Positions 46,714 to 57,381 of a stretch of 64,000 bases of DNA are shown here, piece by piece (position 1 is the first letter of the stretch; every line of letters starts with the position of its first letter). The stretch is from the NCBI RefSeq assembly GCF_028689785.1, contig NZ_JAQVCN010000009.1:35814-99813 (forward strand), given 5' to 3'. The translations under genes were made by a program, and so were the position numbers. The stretch is from Zoogloea sp. GTDB taxonomy: Bacteria > Pseudomonadota > Gammaproteobacteria > Burkholderiales > Rhodocyclaceae. The notes under the pieces are model-generated. The model was not told the DNA's origin. It was given only the letters and a program-made list of their open reading frames with translations, and searched no databases.

Positions 46714-47193
46714 TCAGCGTTGGGGGCCGATGCTGACGGTGTCCCGCCCGACTTTCGCTTGCAGGGTATTGAGCGTGTTTCGCTGGATGGGGGCCACGGC
46801 CCGCCAGACTGTTCGGTTGGGGTCGCGGTAGGCCACGAAGACGCCGATCGACTTCACCTCTGCTCCGGGCCGCAGCAGGGTCTTGACGCTTTCACCCGGC
46901 CTCAGGGTGATCTCCTCACGCTGTACGCTGGTGTTGCCGAGGGTTTTTTCGTCGGCATCGAAGAGCGAGAAGAAATCGGCGGCTTCGAATGATGCCGGGT
47001 GAGACAGCAGGTAATAGCGCACCACCACCGGGGTGGAGCGCCCGCGGCTGTCCTGATTGACAGACGTATCGGCCTGGAGTGTCAGCTGAACCAGCGTGGG
47101 GGGAAGCTCTGGAACTTGCGGCTTGCTGCCGCCACAGGCGGCCAGCGCAATGCACAGGCCAACCCAGCAACCGGTCTTGAATGGCTTCCACAT
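46714..47193 (-). CDS. tssJ: T6SS outer-membrane lipoprotein TssJ
   Basis: A 159-residue lipoprotein precursor: WKPFKTGCWVGLCIALAACGGS provides the signal peptide and lipobox Cys (LAAC, about residue 19). The beta-sandwich body shows VVVRYYLLSHPASFEAADFFSLFDADEKTLG and PGAEVKSIGVFVAYRDPNRTVWRAV, typical of TssJ. It anchors TssM to the outer membrane. The start is ATG 47193, because the track's start at 47283 would put 30 charged residues before the signal peptide. It is the first gene of the - arm. Confidence 0.94.
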   Translation of the reverse strand: MWKPFKTGCWVGLCIALAACGGSKPQVPELPPTLVQLTLQADTSVNQDSRGRSTPVVVRYYLLSHPASFEAADFFSLFDADEKTLGNTSVQREEITLRPGESVKTLLRPGAEVKSIGVFVAYRDPNRTVWRAVAPIQRNTLNTLQAKVGRDTVSIGPQR

Positions 47194-47388
47194 GAATCGG
47201 GGTCCGCGAGTCGACGACCGCAGCAGTTTATCCTGTAACCACAGCGCTTGAGCGGCGGATAAAAGGCCACCGGGCATTATCATTTTTGCTAAGGTAAGCG
47301 AATAAGGACGTCGGCGTGCGAAGGCCTTTTACGGCCGGGTGCGACCAGGCATGAAGCCACAACGTCATCACCGCAGAGGGAGGCCCAC
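47194..47388. other. Divergent intergenic region, tssJ / lipoprotein
   Basis: About 195 bases between two divergent genes. It must contain the start of the tssJKLM-tagF transcript and of the + strand envelope locus. A TGATAAT-like -10 on the - strand (complement of 47275-47281) is the only promoter-like element I noted; its -35 partner is poor. GGGAGG precedes ATG 47389. Confidence 0.4.
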
Positions 47389-49623
47389 ATGCGCGTTTCG
47401 CTCGTCTCGAAAGTGCCCGTCGCGTCTGTCGCCTGTTTGATCGTCTTGGGCCTGCTGGCCGGGTGTGGGGGCTCCGGGAGCGCCGATGGGGTCAAGAAGA
47501 GTACGGGCGCAACACTCACCTCCCTGCGGGTGGAGGCGCGTGACGGAGAAGGCGACAGCCTGAACTACCAGTGGCGGGTGACGGCAGGCAGTATCGATAA
47601 CCGCAATGCCAGCGCCACCACCTGGGAGCTCCCCGACGGCCCCGGTATGCACTTCGCCTATGTGCTGGTCGGCGACGGCCGAGGTGGCTACATGGAGCAG
47701 CAGTACGCTGTTTCCAGTGATGCCTTCAGGATTTCCGCTCCGCTGGCCACCCCGGCAAGCTATAGCACCCCGGCCGTGGCCGCCGGCGACGAGGTGAAGG
47801 GGGGCACCGTGCGGCTCCGCTTCATCGCCGATTTCGACACTACTTTCCACAACGGGGCCGCTTCGGGGGTCCGCAACGTCTATCTCCCCGACATCCGGGT
47901 GAACGTGACCAGGGCTGGTAGTGGCGAAGCGGTGTTCTCCGGAACGAGCAACCTCGGCGGTGAGCTGACGCTCCCGGCCCTGGCCGAAGGGGAGGCCTTC
48001 AACATCGTTTGCAGCGGCCCCCAGGGGAACACCCTGGAGGGCTGCAGCACGCTGACGGGCGCCGCGCTTTCGCAGGGGCTGCAGCTGGGCGTCAAGGCGC
48101 CGTCGAACGTGCATAACCTGCGCCTGTATGGACATGTGGGGCTGGCGGATGGCGGCATCTGCGGCGTGGACAACACGTTTTTCGGCGTTCAGTCCGCAGC
48201 CACCGTCCAGGCGTTGCAGGCGGATGGCAGCAGCCTCGCCGCGCCGGTTCGGGTGAACCGCTTCGGCGACTACGTGCTGGATGCAGCGGTGCTGGTCAAC
48301 GCCCGTCTCAAGCTCCGCATTAGTTGTGAAGCCTATTCTGTGACCCTCGACCTGCCCACCCCGACCGGGGGCTACCTGGGCAATGCCATCGAGTTTTCCC
48401 ATGTCATTCCCAATAGCCGGCCGGCGATGGTCAAGATGCTGGCCAATGGCCCGGATGGCAATGTCCGGGGGCAGATGGTTGTGCCGGTGGCCGGCGCCTT
48501 CTCCGTGGCCCAGCCCCGGTCCGACCACTTCCTGACCTACAAGGGGGCCGACAGCCGGGTGGGGGCCTGCAACTACTACCGGGCCTTGGGCGCGGTGAAG
48601 GACTGCGACGCCCAGGGCAACATGGTGGGCCCCATTACCCTGGAGGACTGGAAGCGCGAGAACCGGATGGGCAGCTACCGGGCCGGCAACGAGGAAGTCT
48701 CGGCCACCTATGTCAATCAGCGCGATCTCAACCTGGTGCGGCGCATGGTGGCCACACAGGCCGCGCCGGACCGGATCGCCTTTGTCGTCTGCAACCACCC
48801 CGGCCCGGACGGTGAGACCCAGCGCGAGACCAATGAGGTGATCGAAACGGCCCTTGCCGATGAGAAGCGCGTTGCCTGCGTTGCCATGGAGTATTCGCCG
48901 GCCACGGGGCGGAGCGATGGCCAGCCTTTCACCAAGTTCCTTACCTTCGGGCCCGACGGCAAGCTGGTGCTCTCGGTCAATCTGGACGGACGTGGCGAGA
49001 AGTACATGCCCGGCGCCTGCGTGGCCTGCCACGGCGGTGCCGGCTACCTGGGGCACTTCCCCGAATCCGGCCACCCCAGCCCCGATCTAAAGTCGAATTT
49101 CCTGCCCTTCGATACCGGCAACTATCTGTTCTCGACCCGCCAGGGCTTCTCCGAGGCAGAGCAGGCCGCCGCCATCCGCAAGCTCAACGATCTGGTCGTT
49201 GCCACCCAGCCGGCCACGGCCACCCGCAAGCTGGTCCAGGGTTGGTATGCCAGGTCGGCCCTGAGCCTGGACAAGACCTACGTACCGCCAGCCTGGGTCA
49301 GCTACGACACGGTCAAGCCCGGTGCCGCGCGGTTCTACCGGGAAGTGGTGGGCACCTCGTGCCGGACCTGCCACGCCGCCATGCAGGACAATTTCGACTG
49401 GGACTCGGGGGCCGGCCAGCCCATTCTCCTGAGCCGCGTGGCCCTGCCCCACGTCTGTGGCGGCCAGGCCGACCTGTATGCCAATGCTTCCATGCCAAAC
49501 GCCCTGATGTCCCTGGACAAGCTCCATACCCGCATCCAGGCGGACCCCTCCCTGGCGACGCTGGTGAAGGATTTCCTGGGCTGCACCACCCCCGCCCCGG
49601 ATCCGGTCTACCCCCGTCGCTGA
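47389..49623 (+). CDS. Lipoprotein with two CxxCH haem-binding motifs
   Basis: A 744-residue exported protein. The signal peptide ends in a lipobox (VLGLLAGCGGSGS). Residues about 40-115 look like a PKD/cadherin-type beta domain (EARDGEGDSLNYQWRVTAGSIDNR), and another beta-rich part follows. The C-terminal third carries two CxxCH sites, GACVACHGGAGYLGHFP (about 545) and TSCRTCHAAMQDNFDW (about 660), which suggest covalent haem c. I know no named family for the whole. It begins a + strand envelope locus with an OmpA lipoprotein and a JDVT-CTERM protein that also has CxxCH. An oxidoreductase or electron-carrier role is inference. Confidence 0.75.
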   Translation: MRVSLVSKVPVASVACLIVLGLLAGCGGSGSADGVKKSTGATLTSLRVEARDGEGDSLNYQWRVTAGSIDNRNASATTWELPDGPGMHFAYVLVGDGRGGYMEQQYAVSSDAFRISAPLATPASYSTPAVAAGDEVKGGTVRLRFIADFDTTFHNGAASGVRNVYLPDIRVNVTRAGSGEAVFSGTSNLGGELTLPALAEGEAFNIVCSGPQGNTLEGCSTLTGAALSQGLQLGVKAPSNVHNLRLYGHVGLADGGICGVDNTFFGVQSAATVQALQADGSSLAAPVRVNRFGDYVLDAAVLVNARLKLRISCEAYSVTLDLPTPTGGYLGNAIEFSHVIPNSRPAMVKMLANGPDGNVRGQMVVPVAGAFSVAQPRSDHFLTYKGADSRVGACNYYRALGAVKDCDAQGNMVGPITLEDWKRENRMGSYRAGNEEVSATYVNQRDLNLVRRMVATQAAPDRIAFVVCNHPGPDGETQRETNEVIETALADEKRVACVAMEYSPATGRSDGQPFTKFLTFGPDGKLVLSVNLDGRGEKYMPGACVACHGGAGYLGHFPESGHPSPDLKSNFLPFDTGNYLFSTRQGFSEAEQAAAIRKLNDLVVATQPATATRKLVQGWYARSALSLDKTYVPPAWVSYDTVKPGAARFYREVVGTSCRTCHAAMQDNFDWDSGAGQPILLSRVALPHVCGGQADLYANASMPNALMSLDKLHTRIQADPSLATLVKDFLGCTTPAPDPVYPRR

Positions 49624-49658
49624 TCCCCGCACATTCTGCCGGACCCTAGGAAAACCAG

Positions 49659-50984
49659 ATGAAATCAAGCACATCCACCCCCTCCCTCAAGATCCTGGCG
49701 GCGCTGCTGCTGAGCATGGGGCTTGTCGCCTGCAGCAACCCCAAGGGGCCCGCGTCGGCGGGCAGTGTCCGCGCCACCCCGGATGCAAGCCAGAACACGG
49801 CGGCCGATACCGATCCGGGCTACGTCGCAGAGGGTGCCCCCCAGCCGCCCGTCCGCTCTCCGCGCAAGCCCCTGGTCGCACCTTCCCCGATCAAGTTCGA
49901 GGACGCCATCACCCGTGCCGGCGACAAGCTGTTCGAGGATGCTCTGGCTGAGTTGGGCAGTGGCAAGCGGGCTGTGGTCATCGACCCACTGATCGATGCC
50001 AACACCGGCGCCCAGACCGTCAGCACGGTCAAGATGGGGCAGCAACTCCAGGCCCTGCTCAAGCAGCGCCGCTACACCAATTTCACCGTCAAGCCGCTCA
50101 CCCGCCAGAGCCTGGCGGAGCAGCCCCTGCTACTGATCGGCACCCTCACGCCGGTCAATGTGGAGCGGGCCATCGACACGCCGCCCGACGCCTTCCGGGT
50201 CTGGCTCACGGTCATCGACCTGAAGACCCGGCGGGTGGTCGCCAAGCAGATCGACCGGGCCACCGTGGGCTCGGTGAATCCGGAGCCGCTGCCTTACTTC
50301 CGTGACAGCCCGAGCTGGCACAAGGACAAGACGGTGATGGGCTACATCAACTCCTGCCAGGTCAACACTCAGGTCGGCGATCTGGCCGACCCTGACTACC
50401 TGTCCCGGCTGCCTGCCGCCGCGGTCATCAATGAAGCCATGCTGGCCTACAACGACGGCAAGATCGGCGATGCCAACGCGCTGTACAAGGAGGCTTCCGG
50501 GCTTGCCGACCGGGGTGATCTGCGCGTTCTCAACGGTCTCTACCTGACCAGCTGGCAGCTGGGCCAGCGGGACGCCGCCCAGGATGCCTTCAGCCGGCTG
50601 GTGGCCTCCGGCCTGGAGGCCAGGCGCCTGCCCATGAAGCTGCTCTTCAAGCCCGGCACCGTCAGCTTCAACGACCTGGGCGACCTGCCCACCCAATACC
50701 AGCTATGGCTCGCCACCATGGCCCGGGAGGCGGGCAAGACGCCCGCCTGCATGAAGATTGTCGGGCACACCAGCCGGACCGGCAGCGCCAGCGCCAACGA
50801 GCGCCTGTCCCTGCGCCGTGCCGAGGCGGTGAGCAAGCTGCTGGAAGGGCGCGAACGTTCGTTGCGCACCCGGCTGTCGGTGGGGGGCGTCGGCTCCCGC
50901 GAGGCCCTGATCGGGCTGGGGACCGATGATCAGCGGGATGCTCTGGATCGGCGGGTGGAGTTCCGGGTCGTCGATTGCATCTAG
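49659..50984 (+). CDS. OmpA-family lipoprotein
   Basis: A 441-residue lipoprotein with signal peptide and lipobox (LLLSMGLVACSNPKG). The N-terminal half (KRAVVIDPLIDANTGAQTVSTVKMGQQLQALL...TNFTVKPLTRQ) resembles the LpoB/CsgG/FlgO-like fold. A TPR-like part follows (DGKIGDANALYKEASGLADRGDLRVLNGLYLTSWQLGQRDAAQDAFSRL). The end is an OmpA peptidoglycan-binding domain (CMKIVGHTSRTGSASANERLSLRRAEAVSKLL, RDALDRRVEFRVV). It probably bridges the outer membrane and cell wall. It lies 35 bases after the CxxCH lipoprotein. The partner it works with is not evident. Confidence 0.8.
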   Translation: MKSSTSTPSLKILAALLLSMGLVACSNPKGPASAGSVRATPDASQNTAADTDPGYVAEGAPQPPVRSPRKPLVAPSPIKFEDAITRAGDKLFEDALAELGSGKRAVVIDPLIDANTGAQTVSTVKMGQQLQALLKQRRYTNFTVKPLTRQSLAEQPLLLIGTLTPVNVERAIDTPPDAFRVWLTVIDLKTRRVVAKQIDRATVGSVNPEPLPYFRDSPSWHKDKTVMGYINSCQVNTQVGDLADPDYLSRLPAAAVINEAMLAYNDGKIGDANALYKEASGLADRGDLRVLNGLYLTSWQLGQRDAAQDAFSRLVASGLEARRLPMKLLFKPGTVSFNDLGDLPTQYQLWLATMAREAGKTPACMKIVGHTSRTGSASANERLSLRRAEAVSKLLEGRERSLRTRLSVGGVGSREALIGLGTDDQRDALDRRVEFRVVDCI

Positions 50985-51041
50985 GCGTCGGCTTCACAAG
51001 GGGCCCGGCAAGGGCCGGACACACGCATTCTTGGGGGGCAG

Positions 51042-53228
51042 ATGGGCATGTTCATGAATCTTCGGAATGCAGGCCGGATCGCGCTGGCGGTGTCAGGCCT
51101 TGCCATGGCTGGCGCTGCCATGGCAGCGGGCGGCCCCAGCTCGACACTCTGGACGGATGTCTGCCAGACCTGCCACCAGGGGAAGGACCACCCCGGCTTC
51201 GTGTCCACGCCGTCGAACCCTCCGACGGATCCGCTTTACCCATCCATCCTCAAGTCCGCCAATCGATCCGACTACACCTGGCTGGATTCCGTCGCCGGCC
51301 TGAAGGCCCATATCGCGGCTGTCGCCACGCCGGGCTCCACCATGAAGCCGTACTACGACGCCTACATCGCCAGTGGTACCACCACGGTGGAGGCTTTGCG
51401 TGTCTTCCTGCTGGCCGCCCTGGATGGCGCCTTCGACAAGACGAGCATCAACTTCGGCAGCAGCGACATCAATGTTGCAAAGAGTGACAGCGTCACGATC
51501 ACCAACCTGCGAGCCAGTAATCTGGTCGTGAACACGGGGTCGATCAGCGTCAGCGACCCGGCCAGTTACCAGATCAACGCGGCTTCAAGCACCTGCTTCA
51601 CTCAGCCAAGCCTCGGCCCCGGTGGAGAATGCACGCTCTCCGTCTCTTTCAAGCCGGCCAGCGCCGGCCTGAAATCCGCCACCCTCCAGGTCCCGCTGGA
51701 TCCCGCCGGTGGCGACCCCCCTCCCACCGTGGCAAACATTGCGCTGTCCGGGACGGGGAGCGCGCCGCCGCCGATCCCTGTCCCCATCCTCAGTTCGGGC
51801 AACATCAGCGGACAGATGGATCGCCCGGTGGGAGAGAGCAGCACCGCCGACCTGACGCTGTTCAACGTCGGCAATGCCCCGGTCAGCCAGCTGGTTGTCG
51901 CCATCCAGGGGGCTGCCGCGGCTGACTACACCTTCACCGAAGACTGCGCCACGAATCCCCCAGCGCCAGGCGGCGTCGAGGCGTGCACGGTCCGGGTCAG
52001 CTTCAAACCTGCTGCCCTCGGTGTGCGTGAGGCGACGCTGCTGGTCAGCTATTCGGGAGGCGCGCCCACGCAAGATTTCTCCCTGCCGGTGGTCATGAAC
52101 TTCAGGGGCATCGTTCCGCCAAAGCCCGTCGCTACCCTCACCGCGTCCACCGACTTCGGCAGCCAGGGGGTCGGTAACGTCTATCCGCCCCGGCGGCTCA
52201 TCTACACCAATTCCGGGCTTGTCACGATCGCCAATATCGCCGTTTCGATTGCCGGCGAAGGCTTCTCGCTTGTCAGCCCCGCCTGCCCCGCCAGCCTGGC
52301 ACCGGGGGCCAAGTGCAGCATCGACGTTCAATTTGCTCCTGCCCTGGCGGATACAGACTATGCGGGTGTGGTGAGCGTTGCCAGCAACGCCGAGGGTGCT
52401 CCCCACAAGGCCACCCTGAACGGCCGCGGGGTGAATGAGCCGACCCCCGTGCTGGCCTGGTCTGGGGCGGGCGGCGTGGTCGATTTTGGCGCCGTTGCAG
52501 TCGGCGCCAGCCGGGAGCTCGATGTCACGCTCACCAACCCGGGCCCGGCGGCTGTGATACTCAAGGTTGCCAACATCCTCGGCGCCCAGGCCCGGTCCTT
52601 CCTGGTGGTGCCGATTTCGTGCCAGTTCAACGACTATCTCACCGCGGGGCAGTCCTGCAAGTTCAGGCTCAGCTTCAGACCCGGCTCGTCCGGCACCAAG
52701 GTCGCCGATGTCCAGGCCGGCACGACGGGGAGCGCCCCGGGCTTGCTGACGGTCACGGGCATCGGGCTCAGCGGGCCGGAGCCCGGGGCTGTGCTCTCTT
52801 CGACGGCCTTGAGCTACACGCCGGTCCGGGTCGGCTCCAGTTCGGCGCCGCAGCTCATCACGCTGCGCAGTAGTGGCTCCGCTGCCCTGCAGATCACCGA
52901 CATTGCCCTCAGCGGCGCCTTTGTGATCAGTGCGCAGACTTGTGCGGCACCCCCCTTCAGCCTGGAGCCGGGCTTTGACTGCACCTTCTCGGTGAGCTTC
53001 AAGCCCACCGTCGAAGGAACGCTGGCGGGAAGCGTAAAGATCAGGTCAAACGCGGCTGATCTGCCGGAATTGCAGATCAGCCTGAGCGGCACGGCCGATC
53101 CGGCCCCCAAGACTTCGGGGGGCGGCGGCTGCTCCCTGGTGCAGGGGGATTCGCCTGCCGATCCGACCCTGTGGCTGCTGGCCGCCGCCGCGCTGGGCGT
53201 GCTGTGGTGGCGTGGGCGCCGGGCATGA
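51042..53228 (+). CDS. CxxCH protein with five anchor-D-like repeats and JDVT-CTERM tail
   Basis: A 728-residue exported protein with signal peptide (NLRNAGRIALAVSGLAMAGAAMAA) and a haem-type motif near the mature start (VCQTCHQGKDHPG). Five beta-sandwich repeats of about 90-100 residues follow, each of the 'choice-of-anchor D'/ASH type with NxG turns, a Cys pair and a C-S-V-x-F-x-P core (ECTLSVSFKPASAG, CTVRVSFKPAALG, CSIDVQFAPALAD, CKFRLSFRPGSSG, CTFSVSFKPTVEG). The C-terminus is a sorting tail: GGGGCSLVQG, DPTLWLLAAAALGVLWW helix, RGRRA. This matches JDVT-CTERM. It overlaps the protease gene by four bases. Confidence 0.85.
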   Translation: MGMFMNLRNAGRIALAVSGLAMAGAAMAAGGPSSTLWTDVCQTCHQGKDHPGFVSTPSNPPTDPLYPSILKSANRSDYTWLDSVAGLKAHIAAVATPGSTMKPYYDAYIASGTTTVEALRVFLLAALDGAFDKTSINFGSSDINVAKSDSVTITNLRASNLVVNTGSISVSDPASYQINAASSTCFTQPSLGPGGECTLSVSFKPASAGLKSATLQVPLDPAGGDPPPTVANIALSGTGSAPPPIPVPILSSGNISGQMDRPVGESSTADLTLFNVGNAPVSQLVVAIQGAAAADYTFTEDCATNPPAPGGVEACTVRVSFKPAALGVREATLLVSYSGGAPTQDFSLPVVMNFRGIVPPKPVATLTASTDFGSQGVGNVYPPRRLIYTNSGLVTIANIAVSIAGEGFSLVSPACPASLAPGAKCSIDVQFAPALADTDYAGVVSVASNAEGAPHKATLNGRGVNEPTPVLAWSGAGGVVDFGAVAVGASRELDVTLTNPGPAAVILKVANILGAQARSFLVVPISCQFNDYLTAGQSCKFRLSFRPGSSGTKVADVQAGTTGSAPGLLTVTGIGLSGPEPGAVLSSTALSYTPVRVGSSSAPQLITLRSSGSAALQITDIALSGAFVISAQTCAAPPFSLEPGFDCTFSVSFKPTVEGTLAGSVKIRSNAADLPELQISLSGTADPAPKTSGGGGCSLVQGDSPADPTLWLLAAAALGVLWWRGRRA

Positions 53229-53635
53229 ACCGGCAGCCAGGCCTTGCAGCCCGGCCGGATGCGGGCCTGCTGCTGCAGTGTGCCGCCGTGCTCGGCCTTG
53301 CCGCCATCGCGGCGGGCCTGAGTGGCACGGCGTGGCGGCAGGGGGTTGTCCTGCTGCTGTTCGCCCCGGTGGTGGAAGAGCTCATCTTCCGCCGGGGCCT
53401 GCAGGAGCTTCTGCTGTCGCGCCGCTGGCCCGGCTGGCAGGCCAACCTGGCCGTGGCGGCCACCTTCGCCCTGGCCCACGGAGCCCTGAGGGGCAGCGTG
53501 GAGGCCCTTGCCCTCGTGCTCCCGGCGATCCTGCTCGGCATGCTCTACGCGCACTGGCGGCGGCTGGGGCCCTGCGTACTGGCCCACGCCCTGATGAATG
53601 GCGTCTGGCTGCTCGCTGTACCGACCCTGATTTGA
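53225..53635 (+). CDS. mrtJ: JDVT-CTERM system intramembrane protease (MrtJ-like, CPBP family)
   Basis: A 136-residue multi-pass membrane protein of the CPBP (CAAX/bacteriocin-processing) glutamic protease family. Catalytic motifs: VVEELIFRRGLQELLLSRR (EExxxR), TFALAHGALRGS (FxxxH) and AHALMNGVW (HxxxN). ATG 53225 overlaps the stop of the JDVT-CTERM protein, strong evidence that this protease serves that one substrate. By analogy with other CTERM sorting proteases it should cut at the GGGGC motif near the tail helix, perhaps letting the Cys be lipidated. It is short for the CPBP family, which is normal for dedicated CTERM proteases. Confidence 0.85.
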   Translation: MNRQPGLAARPDAGLLLQCAAVLGLAAIAAGLSGTAWRQGVVLLLFAPVVEELIFRRGLQELLLSRRWPGWQANLAVAATFALAHGALRGSVEALALVLPAILLGMLYAHWRRLGPCVLAHALMNGVWLLAVPTLI

Positions 53636-53692
53636 ATCGACCCCAGGCATGGCGCCCCGCCGACACTCCGAAGCTGACACAGGCTGAACATC

Positions 53693-54703
53693 ATGAAAAA
53701 CACATCCACGATCCTGACGGCAGTCCTGGGCGGGCTTCTCTTCATCGGCGCCGATGGGGCCTTGGCCCAGGTGGATTACAGCGTCTACGGCGTTGCCGAC
53801 CTCTCCTACGGTGTCTTTGAGCAGAGCGGGCTGGCCAGGGATGTGCGTTTCAACAGCAACTCCCTGTCGCCGAGTTTTGTGGGCGTTACCGGCAGCTACG
53901 GCTTCGACGATGGCTGGAGCGTGGCCGCCGTGGCGGAGACCTTCATCCGCTTCCACGATTTCAAGACCGGCCGGCGTGACTCCGACCCCCTGCTGTCCAG
54001 GAATGCCTTCATCGCCCTGCGCAGCAATGACTACGGCGCCCTGCGCTTCGGCCGCCTGCAGACCCCGATCTTCGACACCACCAACCGCTTCAACGCGCTC
54101 GGCAATTCACCCCTGTCGCCGGCGATCCGCCAGCTCTTCTTCAGCGGCAACATTGAAGGGGTGGATGGGGATTTCTACTGGGACAACGCCGTCGGCTACA
54201 CCAGCCCGAACTTTGATGGATTGAGTTTCAATTTGATGCACGCTGCCCAAAAGAATGAGGAGCGGGGCAGCTACCAGGGGGGCAGCGTGGTGTGGTCCGT
54301 GGGCCTGCTGTCGCTTGAGGCCGCGGCCCAGAATGTGCATGTGAATGACGGCATCAAGGACCCGACCAGAGAAACTACCTGGCAACTGGGGAGCAGTTAC
54401 AACTTTGGCTTTGCCCGGGTGTTCGGCCTGTACTCCCAGGTGCGGGACCGGGGCCTGGATGCCAGGAGCAAGCTGGCCTCGGCGGGGGTCAGCCTGCCCC
54501 TGGGGCCGGGCTCCCTGCTGTTCCAGGTCGGCTCCTCCACCACCGCAGGGGCGGCGATCGACCGCAAGCACACCACCATCAGTTCGGCCTACCTGTATGA
54601 ATACGACAGCGCCACCGATATCTACGTGATCGGCATGGACGACCGGGTCCGCGGCCAGAGCAGCGGGCAGTCGGTGGCCCTGGGGGTACGTTTCAAGTTC
54701 TGA
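53693..54703 (+). CDS. Gram-negative outer-membrane porin
   Basis: A 336-residue protein with a signal peptide (TSTILTAVLGGLLFIGADGALAQ). The mature part is the betaproteobacterial trimeric porin type: VDYSVYGVADLSYGVFEQSG, SPSFVGVTGSYGFDDGWSVAAVAET, NAFIALRSNDYGALRFGRLQTPIFDTTNRF, and the terminal beta strand ending in Phe (SVALGVRFKF), the outer-membrane assembly signal. It should form a 16-stranded general or anion-selective channel. Start ATG 53693 lies 57 bases after mrtJ; whether it is part of that operon is unclear. Confidence 0.9.
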   Translation: MKNTSTILTAVLGGLLFIGADGALAQVDYSVYGVADLSYGVFEQSGLARDVRFNSNSLSPSFVGVTGSYGFDDGWSVAAVAETFIRFHDFKTGRRDSDPLLSRNAFIALRSNDYGALRFGRLQTPIFDTTNRFNALGNSPLSPAIRQLFFSGNIEGVDGDFYWDNAVGYTSPNFDGLSFNLMHAAQKNEERGSYQGGSVVWSVGLLSLEAAAQNVHVNDGIKDPTRETTWQLGSSYNFGFARVFGLYSQVRDRGLDARSKLASAGVSLPLGPGSLLFQVGSSTTAGAAIDRKHTTISSAYLYEYDSATDIYVIGMDDRVRGQSSGQSVALGVRFKF

Positions 54704-55350: not shown

Positions 55351-55455
55351 AGGGCCCCCTTCCGTGGGGTCGAATTCATTCGACCGCGGACTTTGGTCAG
55401 CGGCTTGCCGGTCATTGGCGTGAGCAGGTCGAATGAACTCGACCCTACGGGCCCT
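55351..55455. repeat. REP-like nested inverted repeat
   Basis: Two 19-base arms, GGGTCGAATTCATTCGACC (55367-55385) and GGTCGAATGAACTCGACCC (55427-55445), are inverted copies with one mismatch. Each arm is itself a palindrome or near-palindrome (GGTCGAAT/ATTCGACC). The outer flanks AGGGCCC and GGGCCCT also pair. The whole 105-base unit folds into one large hairpin, in the style of REP/BIME or MITE elements. It lies between the convergent genes for the unknown protein and the kinase. Confidence 0.8.
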
Positions 55456-55478: not shown

Positions 55479-57101
55479 CTAGCGGCAGCGCGCCTTGTCA
55501 AATCGGGCCAGGAGCTCGGGCGAGCTTTCGCCGAGGGAGATGCGCTGCAGGATGCTGGCGCATTCGGCGGAACGGGGGGGGCCAGCTTTTTCGGGTTTGG
55601 CCGGCTTGGTGCCCGTGGCTGCTGCGGTGTCGGCCGGTGCCTTGCGCACGGGAGCGGGCGTGGCGGAAGTCTCCCTGGGGGAGGGGCGTGCGACCGGGGC
55701 CGGGGTTTCGGGCTGGCGGCGAACGGGGGCGGGCGGGGTTGATGGCGCAGCCGGTGCAGCCACTGAAGGGGGCGTCGATGGGGCGGCTGCCGGAACCGCC
55801 GGTGGGGCTGCAGTCGGAGTCGCCGAAGAAGGGGCAGGCGGGGCCGGTGTTGATGCTGCTTCAGCCGGGGCCGGGCGTGCAGGTGGGGGCGCGGCTTCCT
55901 GCACCGCGGGTGTTGCGGGCCGTGCAGCAGCGGGGGTTGTCTCCGTCGGTCGCTTCCCGGTGCTCAGCCACCAGGCTGCTGCCATGGCACAGGCAAGAGC
56001 CAGACCGCCCCCCGTCAGAGCGATGGGGGATATCCGTCGTGGAGATGGGGTAGCGGCCTCGGCTGGGCGCGGGCCGGGTGTGGGCTGGCTGTTTGCGGCC
56101 GGGGGCCTGGCGTGCTCTGGCGGTGATGGCTGCGGTTCCAGATCATGGACCAGGTCGGCGATGGTCTGGGTGCGTGCCTCGGGCCGGGCGGCCAGGGCCC
56201 GGTCGATGGCCCCCAGGAAACCCGCGCTGAAGCCGACCGGTGCCCGCTCCGCCAGCGGGTGGTATTGGTCATTGAGCAGCCGCCCCACCGAGGGCGGCGG
56301 TGTGCTGCCGGTGATGACCCAGTGCATGGTGGCCGCCAGGGCGTAGACGTCGGTCCACGGCCCCTGCTTCATGTCAGGCAGCTCGGCGTACTGCTCGACC
56401 GGCGCGTAGCCGGGCTTGAGGATCACGGTGAGGGCCTGGGTCATGTCGCCGATCACTCGGCGGGCGGCACCGAAGTCGAGCAGCAGCGGGCGGCCGCTGC
56501 CCTCCAGCAGGATGATGTTGTCCGGGGCGATGTCCCGGTGGAAGCACTGCTCCCCGTGAATGAGCCGGAGGGCATCGCACAGGGGGGTGAGGATCCCGGT
56601 GAGCCAGGCCTCGCTGACCTGTGTCCGGTCTGCCTGGATGTGGTCCTTGAGGGTCTCCCCTTCGTAGAGGGGCATGACCATGTAGGCCGTGCCGTTCGCC
56701 TCCCAGAAGCGATACACCTTGACCAGCGCGGGATGGTCGAACTGGGCCAGGAGCTTTGCTTCATTCACGAAGCTCCTGAGGCCCGCCTCGTAGGTGCTCC
56801 GATGGCGCTCCGAGCGGGGCGCCACGGTTGCCGGGCCCTTGCGTGAGGCGATCGAGGCGGGCATGTATTCCTTGAGCGCGACCTTGCGCTCCAGGGAGTG
56901 GTCCCAGGCGAGGTAGACGATGCTGAAGCCGCCCTCGCCGATCTTCGCCCGCAGCTCGAATTCGCCGATCAGGGTGCCCGCAGGCAGCGCTTGTCCGTCC
57001 CCGTCATCGTCGATCCGCGGGGCGCTCCCCGGCGTGGCGGACGTGTCATTGCCGGCAGCAGAGAGAATGGTGCGGTCGTCTTCTTCTGGTGCGTTGCTCA
57101 T
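55479..57101 (-). CDS. Membrane Ser/Thr protein kinase, candidate PpkA
   Basis: A 540-residue Hanks-type kinase. Catalytic features: IGEGGFSIVYLAWD (glycine loop), KVALKEYMP (Lys), CFHRDIAPDNIILL (HRD...N), LLLDFGAARRV (DFG). After the kinase domain (about 45-315), a membrane helix (ISPIALTGGGLALACAMAAAWWL, about 355-377) leads to a Pro/Ala-rich periplasmic stretch and a two-Cys tail (ECASILQRIS...FDKARCR). It could phosphorylate TagH, completing the T6SS switch with PppA, but it lies 8 kb from tssJ. The start ATG 57101 is chosen; the track's start would run into tRNA-Leu. Confidence 0.85.
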   Translation of the reverse strand: MSNAPEEDDRTILSAAGNDTSATPGSAPRIDDDGDGQALPAGTLIGEFELRAKIGEGGFSIVYLAWDHSLERKVALKEYMPASIASRKGPATVAPRSERHRSTYEAGLRSFVNEAKLLAQFDHPALVKVYRFWEANGTAYMVMPLYEGETLKDHIQADRTQVSEAWLTGILTPLCDALRLIHGEQCFHRDIAPDNIILLEGSGRPLLLDFGAARRVIGDMTQALTVILKPGYAPVEQYAELPDMKQGPWTDVYALAATMHWVITGSTPPPSVGRLLNDQYHPLAERAPVGFSAGFLGAIDRALAARPEARTQTIADLVHDLEPQPSPPEHARPPAANSQPTPGPRPAEAATPSPRRISPIALTGGGLALACAMAAAWWLSTGKRPTETTPAAARPATPAVQEAAPPPARPAPAEAASTPAPPAPSSATPTAAPPAVPAAAPSTPPSVAAPAAPSTPPAPVRRQPETPAPVARPSPRETSATPAPVRKAPADTAAATGTKPAKPEKAGPPRSAECASILQRISLGESSPELLARFDKARCR

Positions 57102-57250
57102 GGCCGGTCCGGGGTCTTGGGAATGCGTCAGTCTTGTGGGTTCGGGCGATGGACTGTAAAGCCTGAACGGCGCGGAGGCCACACGCGGTTCATCGTAGCA
57201 TGCCCGCGTGGCGGCTCCGGTGCTTGTCAGGCACCCCGCCGGATAAGCAA

Positions 57251-57279
57251 ACACCCTGCATCCGGAGAGTGCAGGGTGT
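57251..57279. terminator. Terminator of the min/tRNA-Leu transcript
   Basis: ACACCCTGCA (57251-57260) pairs perfectly with TGCAGGGTGT (57270-57279) around a 9-base loop. On the - strand, after tRNA-Leu, the stem is followed by TTTGCTTAT; on the + strand by TGATTTTC. It probably works mainly for the - strand transcript. Confidence 0.8.
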
Positions 57280-57296
57280 TGATTTTCAGTACTTTC

Positions 57297-57381
57297 TGGT
57301 GCCCGGAGCGGGACTTGAACCCGCAAGGCTTGCGCCGGCGGATTTTAAGTCCGCTGTGTATACCGATTTCACCATCCGGGC
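57297..57381 (-). tRNA. tRNA-Leu (TAA)
   Basis: An 85-base tRNA with a long variable arm, as expected for Leu. Acceptor GCCCGGA/TCCGGGC, CCA encoded (complement of 57297-57299). The anticodon loop CTTAAAA within GCGGA/TCCGC gives TAA. It lies ten bases downstream of minE on the same strand. Confidence 0.96.

Follow-up and report, generated by a model that had tools for sequence, protein, structure and literature searches.

Two overlapping genes of a Zoogloea sp. very probably encode a JDVT-CTERM target protein and its cognate protease MrtJ, with processing of the C-terminal tail of the target. They lie in a stretch of 64,000 nucleotides (the window; RefSeq assembly GCF_028689785.1, contig NZ_JAQVCN010000009.1), to which all coordinates below refer. 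Direct support comes from the family memberships of both proteins, the pairing of tail and protease across genomes, the single tail in the genome, the presence of type II secretion (T2SS) secretins and the conservation of the tail. The two-gene arrangement as such is already described; added here are a five-gene block, a CxxCH cargo, many-to-one cases and co-occurrence counts. The location of the pair within a small, conserved, redox-looking block beside a type VI secretion (T6SS) cluster is the less expected part.

The target gene (51042..53228, + strand) codes for 728 amino acids comprising a putative signal peptide, a CxxCH domain, about five ASH/choice-of-anchor-D Ig-like domains and the JDVT tail. 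The signal peptide was assigned by eye from a hydrophobic N-terminus ending in AMAAG; the structure model has a helix at residues 2-22 with low confidence. Pfam matches were to Ig domains of the ASH/HYDIN/VesB type, including PF22544. A fold search with the protein returned only Ig-like repeat proteins, e.g. ciliary ASH proteins and cadherins, and thus was uninformative on function.

The tail, SGGGGCSLVQGDSPADPTLWLLAAAALGVLWWRGRRA, spans residues 692-728 (53115..53225, +). The original prediction had named it a JDVT-CTERM tail, and the NCBIfam model NF033191 agreed with 47.9 bits (E = 8.9e-13; curated cut-off 27 bits), the full model (1-35) aligning with residues 692-727. The tail consists of a GGGGC motif with Cys697 (codon 53130-53132, +), a transmembrane helix, which the structure model places at residues 708-723, and an Arg cluster in the terminal WWRGRRA. 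The Cys was present in every JDVT tail read. Comparison of this genome with three Zoogloea relatives yielded identities of 78, 25 and 31% for the first 130 residues, 85, 45 and 50% for the stalk and 95, 77 and 74% for the tail. Thus conservation is highest in the tail and lowest at the N-terminus, yet the CxxCH motif in the latter is unchanged. This pattern fits a functional sorting tail on a surface-exposed cargo.

The adjacent ORF for a glutamic-type CPBP intramembrane protease (53225..53635, +; 136 amino acids) starts with ATG and is nested in a longer GTG frame (53171-53635). The sequence ATGA at 53225-53228 contains both its start and the stop of the 728-residue ORF, and the motifs EELIFR (53375-53392), FALAH (53465-53479) and HALMN (53585-53599) are in place, so that the claim of a CPBP protease with three motifs, starting inside the stop codon of its neighbour, was confirmed. 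The NCBIfam model for MrtJ (NF033192) scored 79.9 bits (E = 1.7e-22), only 5 bits above its equivalog cut-off of 75 bits. It was the best CPBP model as anticipated: all others reached 16-36 bits, far under their own cut-offs, with MrtS as the runner-up (36.4 bits, cut-off 130). The protein also matched the Rce1-like Pfam family PF02517 with 63.9 bits. The catalytic motifs EExxxR, H and HxxxN are kept in the four Zoogloea copies of MrtJ, which diverges faster than the porin and the lipoproteins of the block described below, with dN < dS. Searches of PDB sequences and of plasmids with MrtJ gave no match.

The four-base overlap of target and protease had been regarded as a strong functional link. 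All four Zoogloea genomes with a tail-protease pair retain it. By itself, however, the overlap is weak evidence because an ATGA or GTGA overlap is possible in 7 of the 46 same-strand neighbouring pairs in the window (simple gene call). Such common overlaps, together with a MrtJ score barely above the cut-off, would be compatible with a tail that is a membrane anchor only and a neighbouring CPBP protein that acts on something else. We consider this highly improbable since tail and MrtJ co-occur across 40 genomes, including many in which the genes are far apart.

MrtJ exceeded its cut-off in 33 of the 40 tail-bearing genomes, i.e. in 32 of 39 when our own is set aside. Matches at E <= 1e-7 were present in 37 of these 39, but this level was also reached in 7 of 14 control genomes; the count above the cut-off is therefore the meaningful one. 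In a sample of 299 genomes of the family MrtJ was above the cut-off in three, all of them Zoogloea with tails. Within the genus, tails were found in 4 of 24 genomes, and all four had MrtJ above the cut-off. Tails occurred in 24 of 399 genomes of a phylum sample and in 16 of 399 of an order sample. The protease was located directly downstream of a tail in about 13 of the 40 genomes, as judged by comparison of positions.

Our own genome has one JDVT tail and one MrtJ above the cut-offs, the next matches having 14.5 and 16.7 bits; a scan for further tails thus revealed none. The proposal of a one-substrate system therefore holds for Zoogloea. It does not extend to the family at large because many genomes outside the genus combine 2-4 tails with one MrtJ above the cut-off, the protease often being far from the tails. 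G350 and G470, for example, have four tails each and a single MrtJ above the cut-off. Together with G362 and others they belong to one family (f39) with up to four tails and a single, mostly non-adjacent MrtJ, a many-to-one system. As a separate observation, our genome encodes 14 PEP-CTERM tails above the cut-off on several contigs, a second C-terminal sorting system. Two GspD secretins of the T2SS were also above the cut-off.

In Myxococcus xanthus the processing of MYXO-CTERM proteins requires MrtX, and an invariant Cys is required for cleavage; the Cys has been proposed to be lipidated before the T2SS exports the protein (PMC11980579). From this work we infer cleavage, lipidation and surface location of the Zoogloea target. 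Sec would export the protein, and its C-terminal helix would keep it in the inner membrane. Cys697 would probably be lipidated by an acyltransferase, and MrtJ would then cut on the far side of Cys697. Thereafter the target would reach the outer surface, most probably via type II secretion, and be retained there by its lipid. A literature search found no experiment on any JDVT/MrtJ pair, and a CxxCH cargo is unusual among JDVT family proteins, which we count against this explanation. The protease might also trim the tail without a lipid on the Cys, the protein then being released or held at the surface via partner proteins like some T2SS substrates. The five-gene block holds no acyltransferase linked to the pair, and the lipidating enzyme is unidentified even for MrtX (PMC11980579), both in favour of processing without a lipid. 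Yet the Cys of every tail read and the dependence of MrtX cleavage on this residue argue against it, and we regard it as clearly unlikely.

The pair is part of a block of five genes, all read in the same direction, whose order is conserved in the four Zoogloea genomes that carry it. The first gene (47389..49623, +) codes for a putative lipoprotein with two CxxCH motifs, CVACH and CRTCH, and no assigned family. It is followed by a putative lipoprotein with an OmpA domain (49659..50984, +; PF00691, 32.2 bits), the JDVT protein, MrtJ and a general porin (53693..54703, +; Porin_4, PF13609, 106.3 bits), the latter conserved in all four genomes. The CxxCH lipoprotein occurs in 3 of 24 Zoogloea genomes, all of them tail-bearing, while the contig of the fourth tail genome stops just past the OmpA gene. 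Close orthologues of the OmpA lipoprotein (81-92% identity) are restricted to the same four genomes, with relatives of 39-44% identity elsewhere. The CxxCH region of the first lipoprotein had a sub-threshold match to Cytochrome_CBB3 (20.7 bits); a PDB sequence search gave no match, and its AlphaFold model, based on three sequences, was unusable with a mean pLDDT of 31. The five-gene block was not found at the other tail loci examined outside Zoogloea. Scans for promoters and terminators gave nothing above shuffled sequences.

The block is flanked on the left by the gene for the T6SS lipoprotein TssJ (46714..47283, - strand), beyond which tssK, tssL and tssM follow (46686-40393, -) and, farther out, tagF, a PP2C-type phosphatase gene and an FHA protein gene. 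A Ser/Thr protein kinase gene (55479..57326, -) is on the right. The T6SS cluster as a whole extends over 25167-47283 of the window and encodes a ClpV-type ATPase, a VgrG-type spike protein, a DUF2169 protein and an Imm11-type immunity gene in addition to FHA, PP2C phosphatase, TagF and TssM/L/K/J. Because six Zoogloea genomes without the block retain relatives of tssJ, tssK and tssL, these T6SS genes do not require it. The whole block is turned round in Z. dura with respect to tssJ and the kinase gene, and a Zoogloea MAG shows this same orientation on the tssJ side. Comparison of the block (47389-54703) with loci L071 and L072 showed it inverted between two pairs of Zoogloea species with the flanking tssJKL and kinase genes kept. 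Inverted repeats that bracket the block and could explain the inversion were not present in our genome. The gap between porin and kinase genes contains an inverted repeat (55362-55450) of 24 bases, 92% complementary and 41 bases apart.

With respect to the cargo, the target has the haem-binding motif CQTCH at residues 41-45 (51162..51176, +). The residues C-x-x-C-H are invariant in the four orthologues from Zoogloea and in a relative from G556, a genome of another family, and among about 44 JDVT proteins read these were the only ones with the motif. The domain itself matched cytochrome Pfam models weakly (E 0.089), and the structure model has low confidence in this region. These scores, the Ig-like stalk, the fast-evolving N-terminus and the adjoining T6SS genes would also suit a surface adhesin with a CxxCH domain that is not a cytochrome, the block being an adhesion or T6SS accessory. 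This alternative bears on the cargo alone and does not conflict with processing of the tail. We consider it rather unlikely in view of the retention of CxxCH although the identity of the domain drops to 25-31%, of the second CxxCH protein at the head of the block and of the G556 relative. The latter, from another family of the same order, has a clear cytochrome c match (3.3e-6) and sits in a redox cluster, with genes for DUF4266, DUF3570 and ApbE downstream.

ApbE flavinylates DUF3570 proteins, and clusters of this kind were assigned to extracytosolic electron transfer (PMC8238504). In G556 the thioredoxin-like member of such a DUF3570/DUF4266/ApbE cluster is fused to the CxxCH-ASH-JDVT protein; beside the Zoogloea block no such genes were seen. 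The G556 frame (L074:9584-12355) reads cytochrome, ASH, JDVT tail, signal-like stretch and thioredoxin-like domain, so that the JDVT tail is internal, much as has been reported for the MYXO-CTERM tail of MXAN_5598. The G556 case is the best independent support for a redox cargo.

Taken together, the JDVT protein is a probable carrier of a c-type cytochrome domain, and a surface-anchored redox protein is plausible. The cargo is most likely a c-type cytochrome carried by an Ig-like stalk; that it takes part in cell-surface electron exchange together with the co-inherited CxxCH lipoprotein is possible but somewhat short of an even chance. Still more tentatively, and on balance doubtfully, MrtJ may anchor the stalked cytochrome on the Zoogloea surface as part of a non-Mtr electron-exchange module formed with the CxxCH lipoprotein, the OmpA lipoprotein and the porin. 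An Mtr-type porin-cytochrome conduit (MtrAB, i.e. an MtrB/PioB-type barrel with a multihaem cytochrome) was considered separately and rejected, because the porin matches general porins only and there are at most two CxxCH motifs per protein. An Mtr-like cluster different from this block has been reported for Zoogloea found on anodes (PMC8258643), which is context and not evidence for the block.

JDVT/MrtJ is a predicted system, and a genome with one target and one small protease would offer a simple setting in which to demonstrate cleavage and to seek the missing lipidating enzyme. Furthermore, the conserved block suggests surface redox chemistry as the function of the cargo, in a wastewater genus that has been enriched on anodes (PMC8258643).

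Among known systems, GlyGly-CTERM/rhombosortase, with VesB of Vibrio cholerae as an example, has a similar cargo plan: the stalk of the Zoogloea target matches the HYDIN/CFA65/VesB-like Ig family PF22544 and is followed by a tripartite tail. Rhombosortase, however, belongs to the rhomboid serine proteases, which are not related to CPBP proteins, and its tail is glycine/serine-based. MYXO-CTERM/MrtX of M. xanthus shares the common plan of Cys motif, helix and Arg cluster with a CPBP protease that has EExxxR and HxxxN. Yet 35 MYXO-CTERM proteins occur in M. xanthus, whose MrtX has 239 residues, whereas the Zoogloea protease is a near-minimal core of 136 residues with one target, and the myxosortase models (MrtP, MrtC and core) scored far below their cut-offs on it. 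The closest counterpart is JDVT-CTERM/MrtJ itself (NF033191, NF033192), both models being above their curated cut-offs here. PMC11980579 describes MrtJ and a single JDVT-CTERM protein as encoded by two neighbouring genes, sporadically in beta- and gammaproteobacteria, and the Zoogloea pair, in a betaproteobacterium, is therefore a further case of this arrangement. While a single MrtJ is often accompanied by several tails elsewhere, the Zoogloea system is distinguished by its CxxCH-ASH cargo and its five-gene block.
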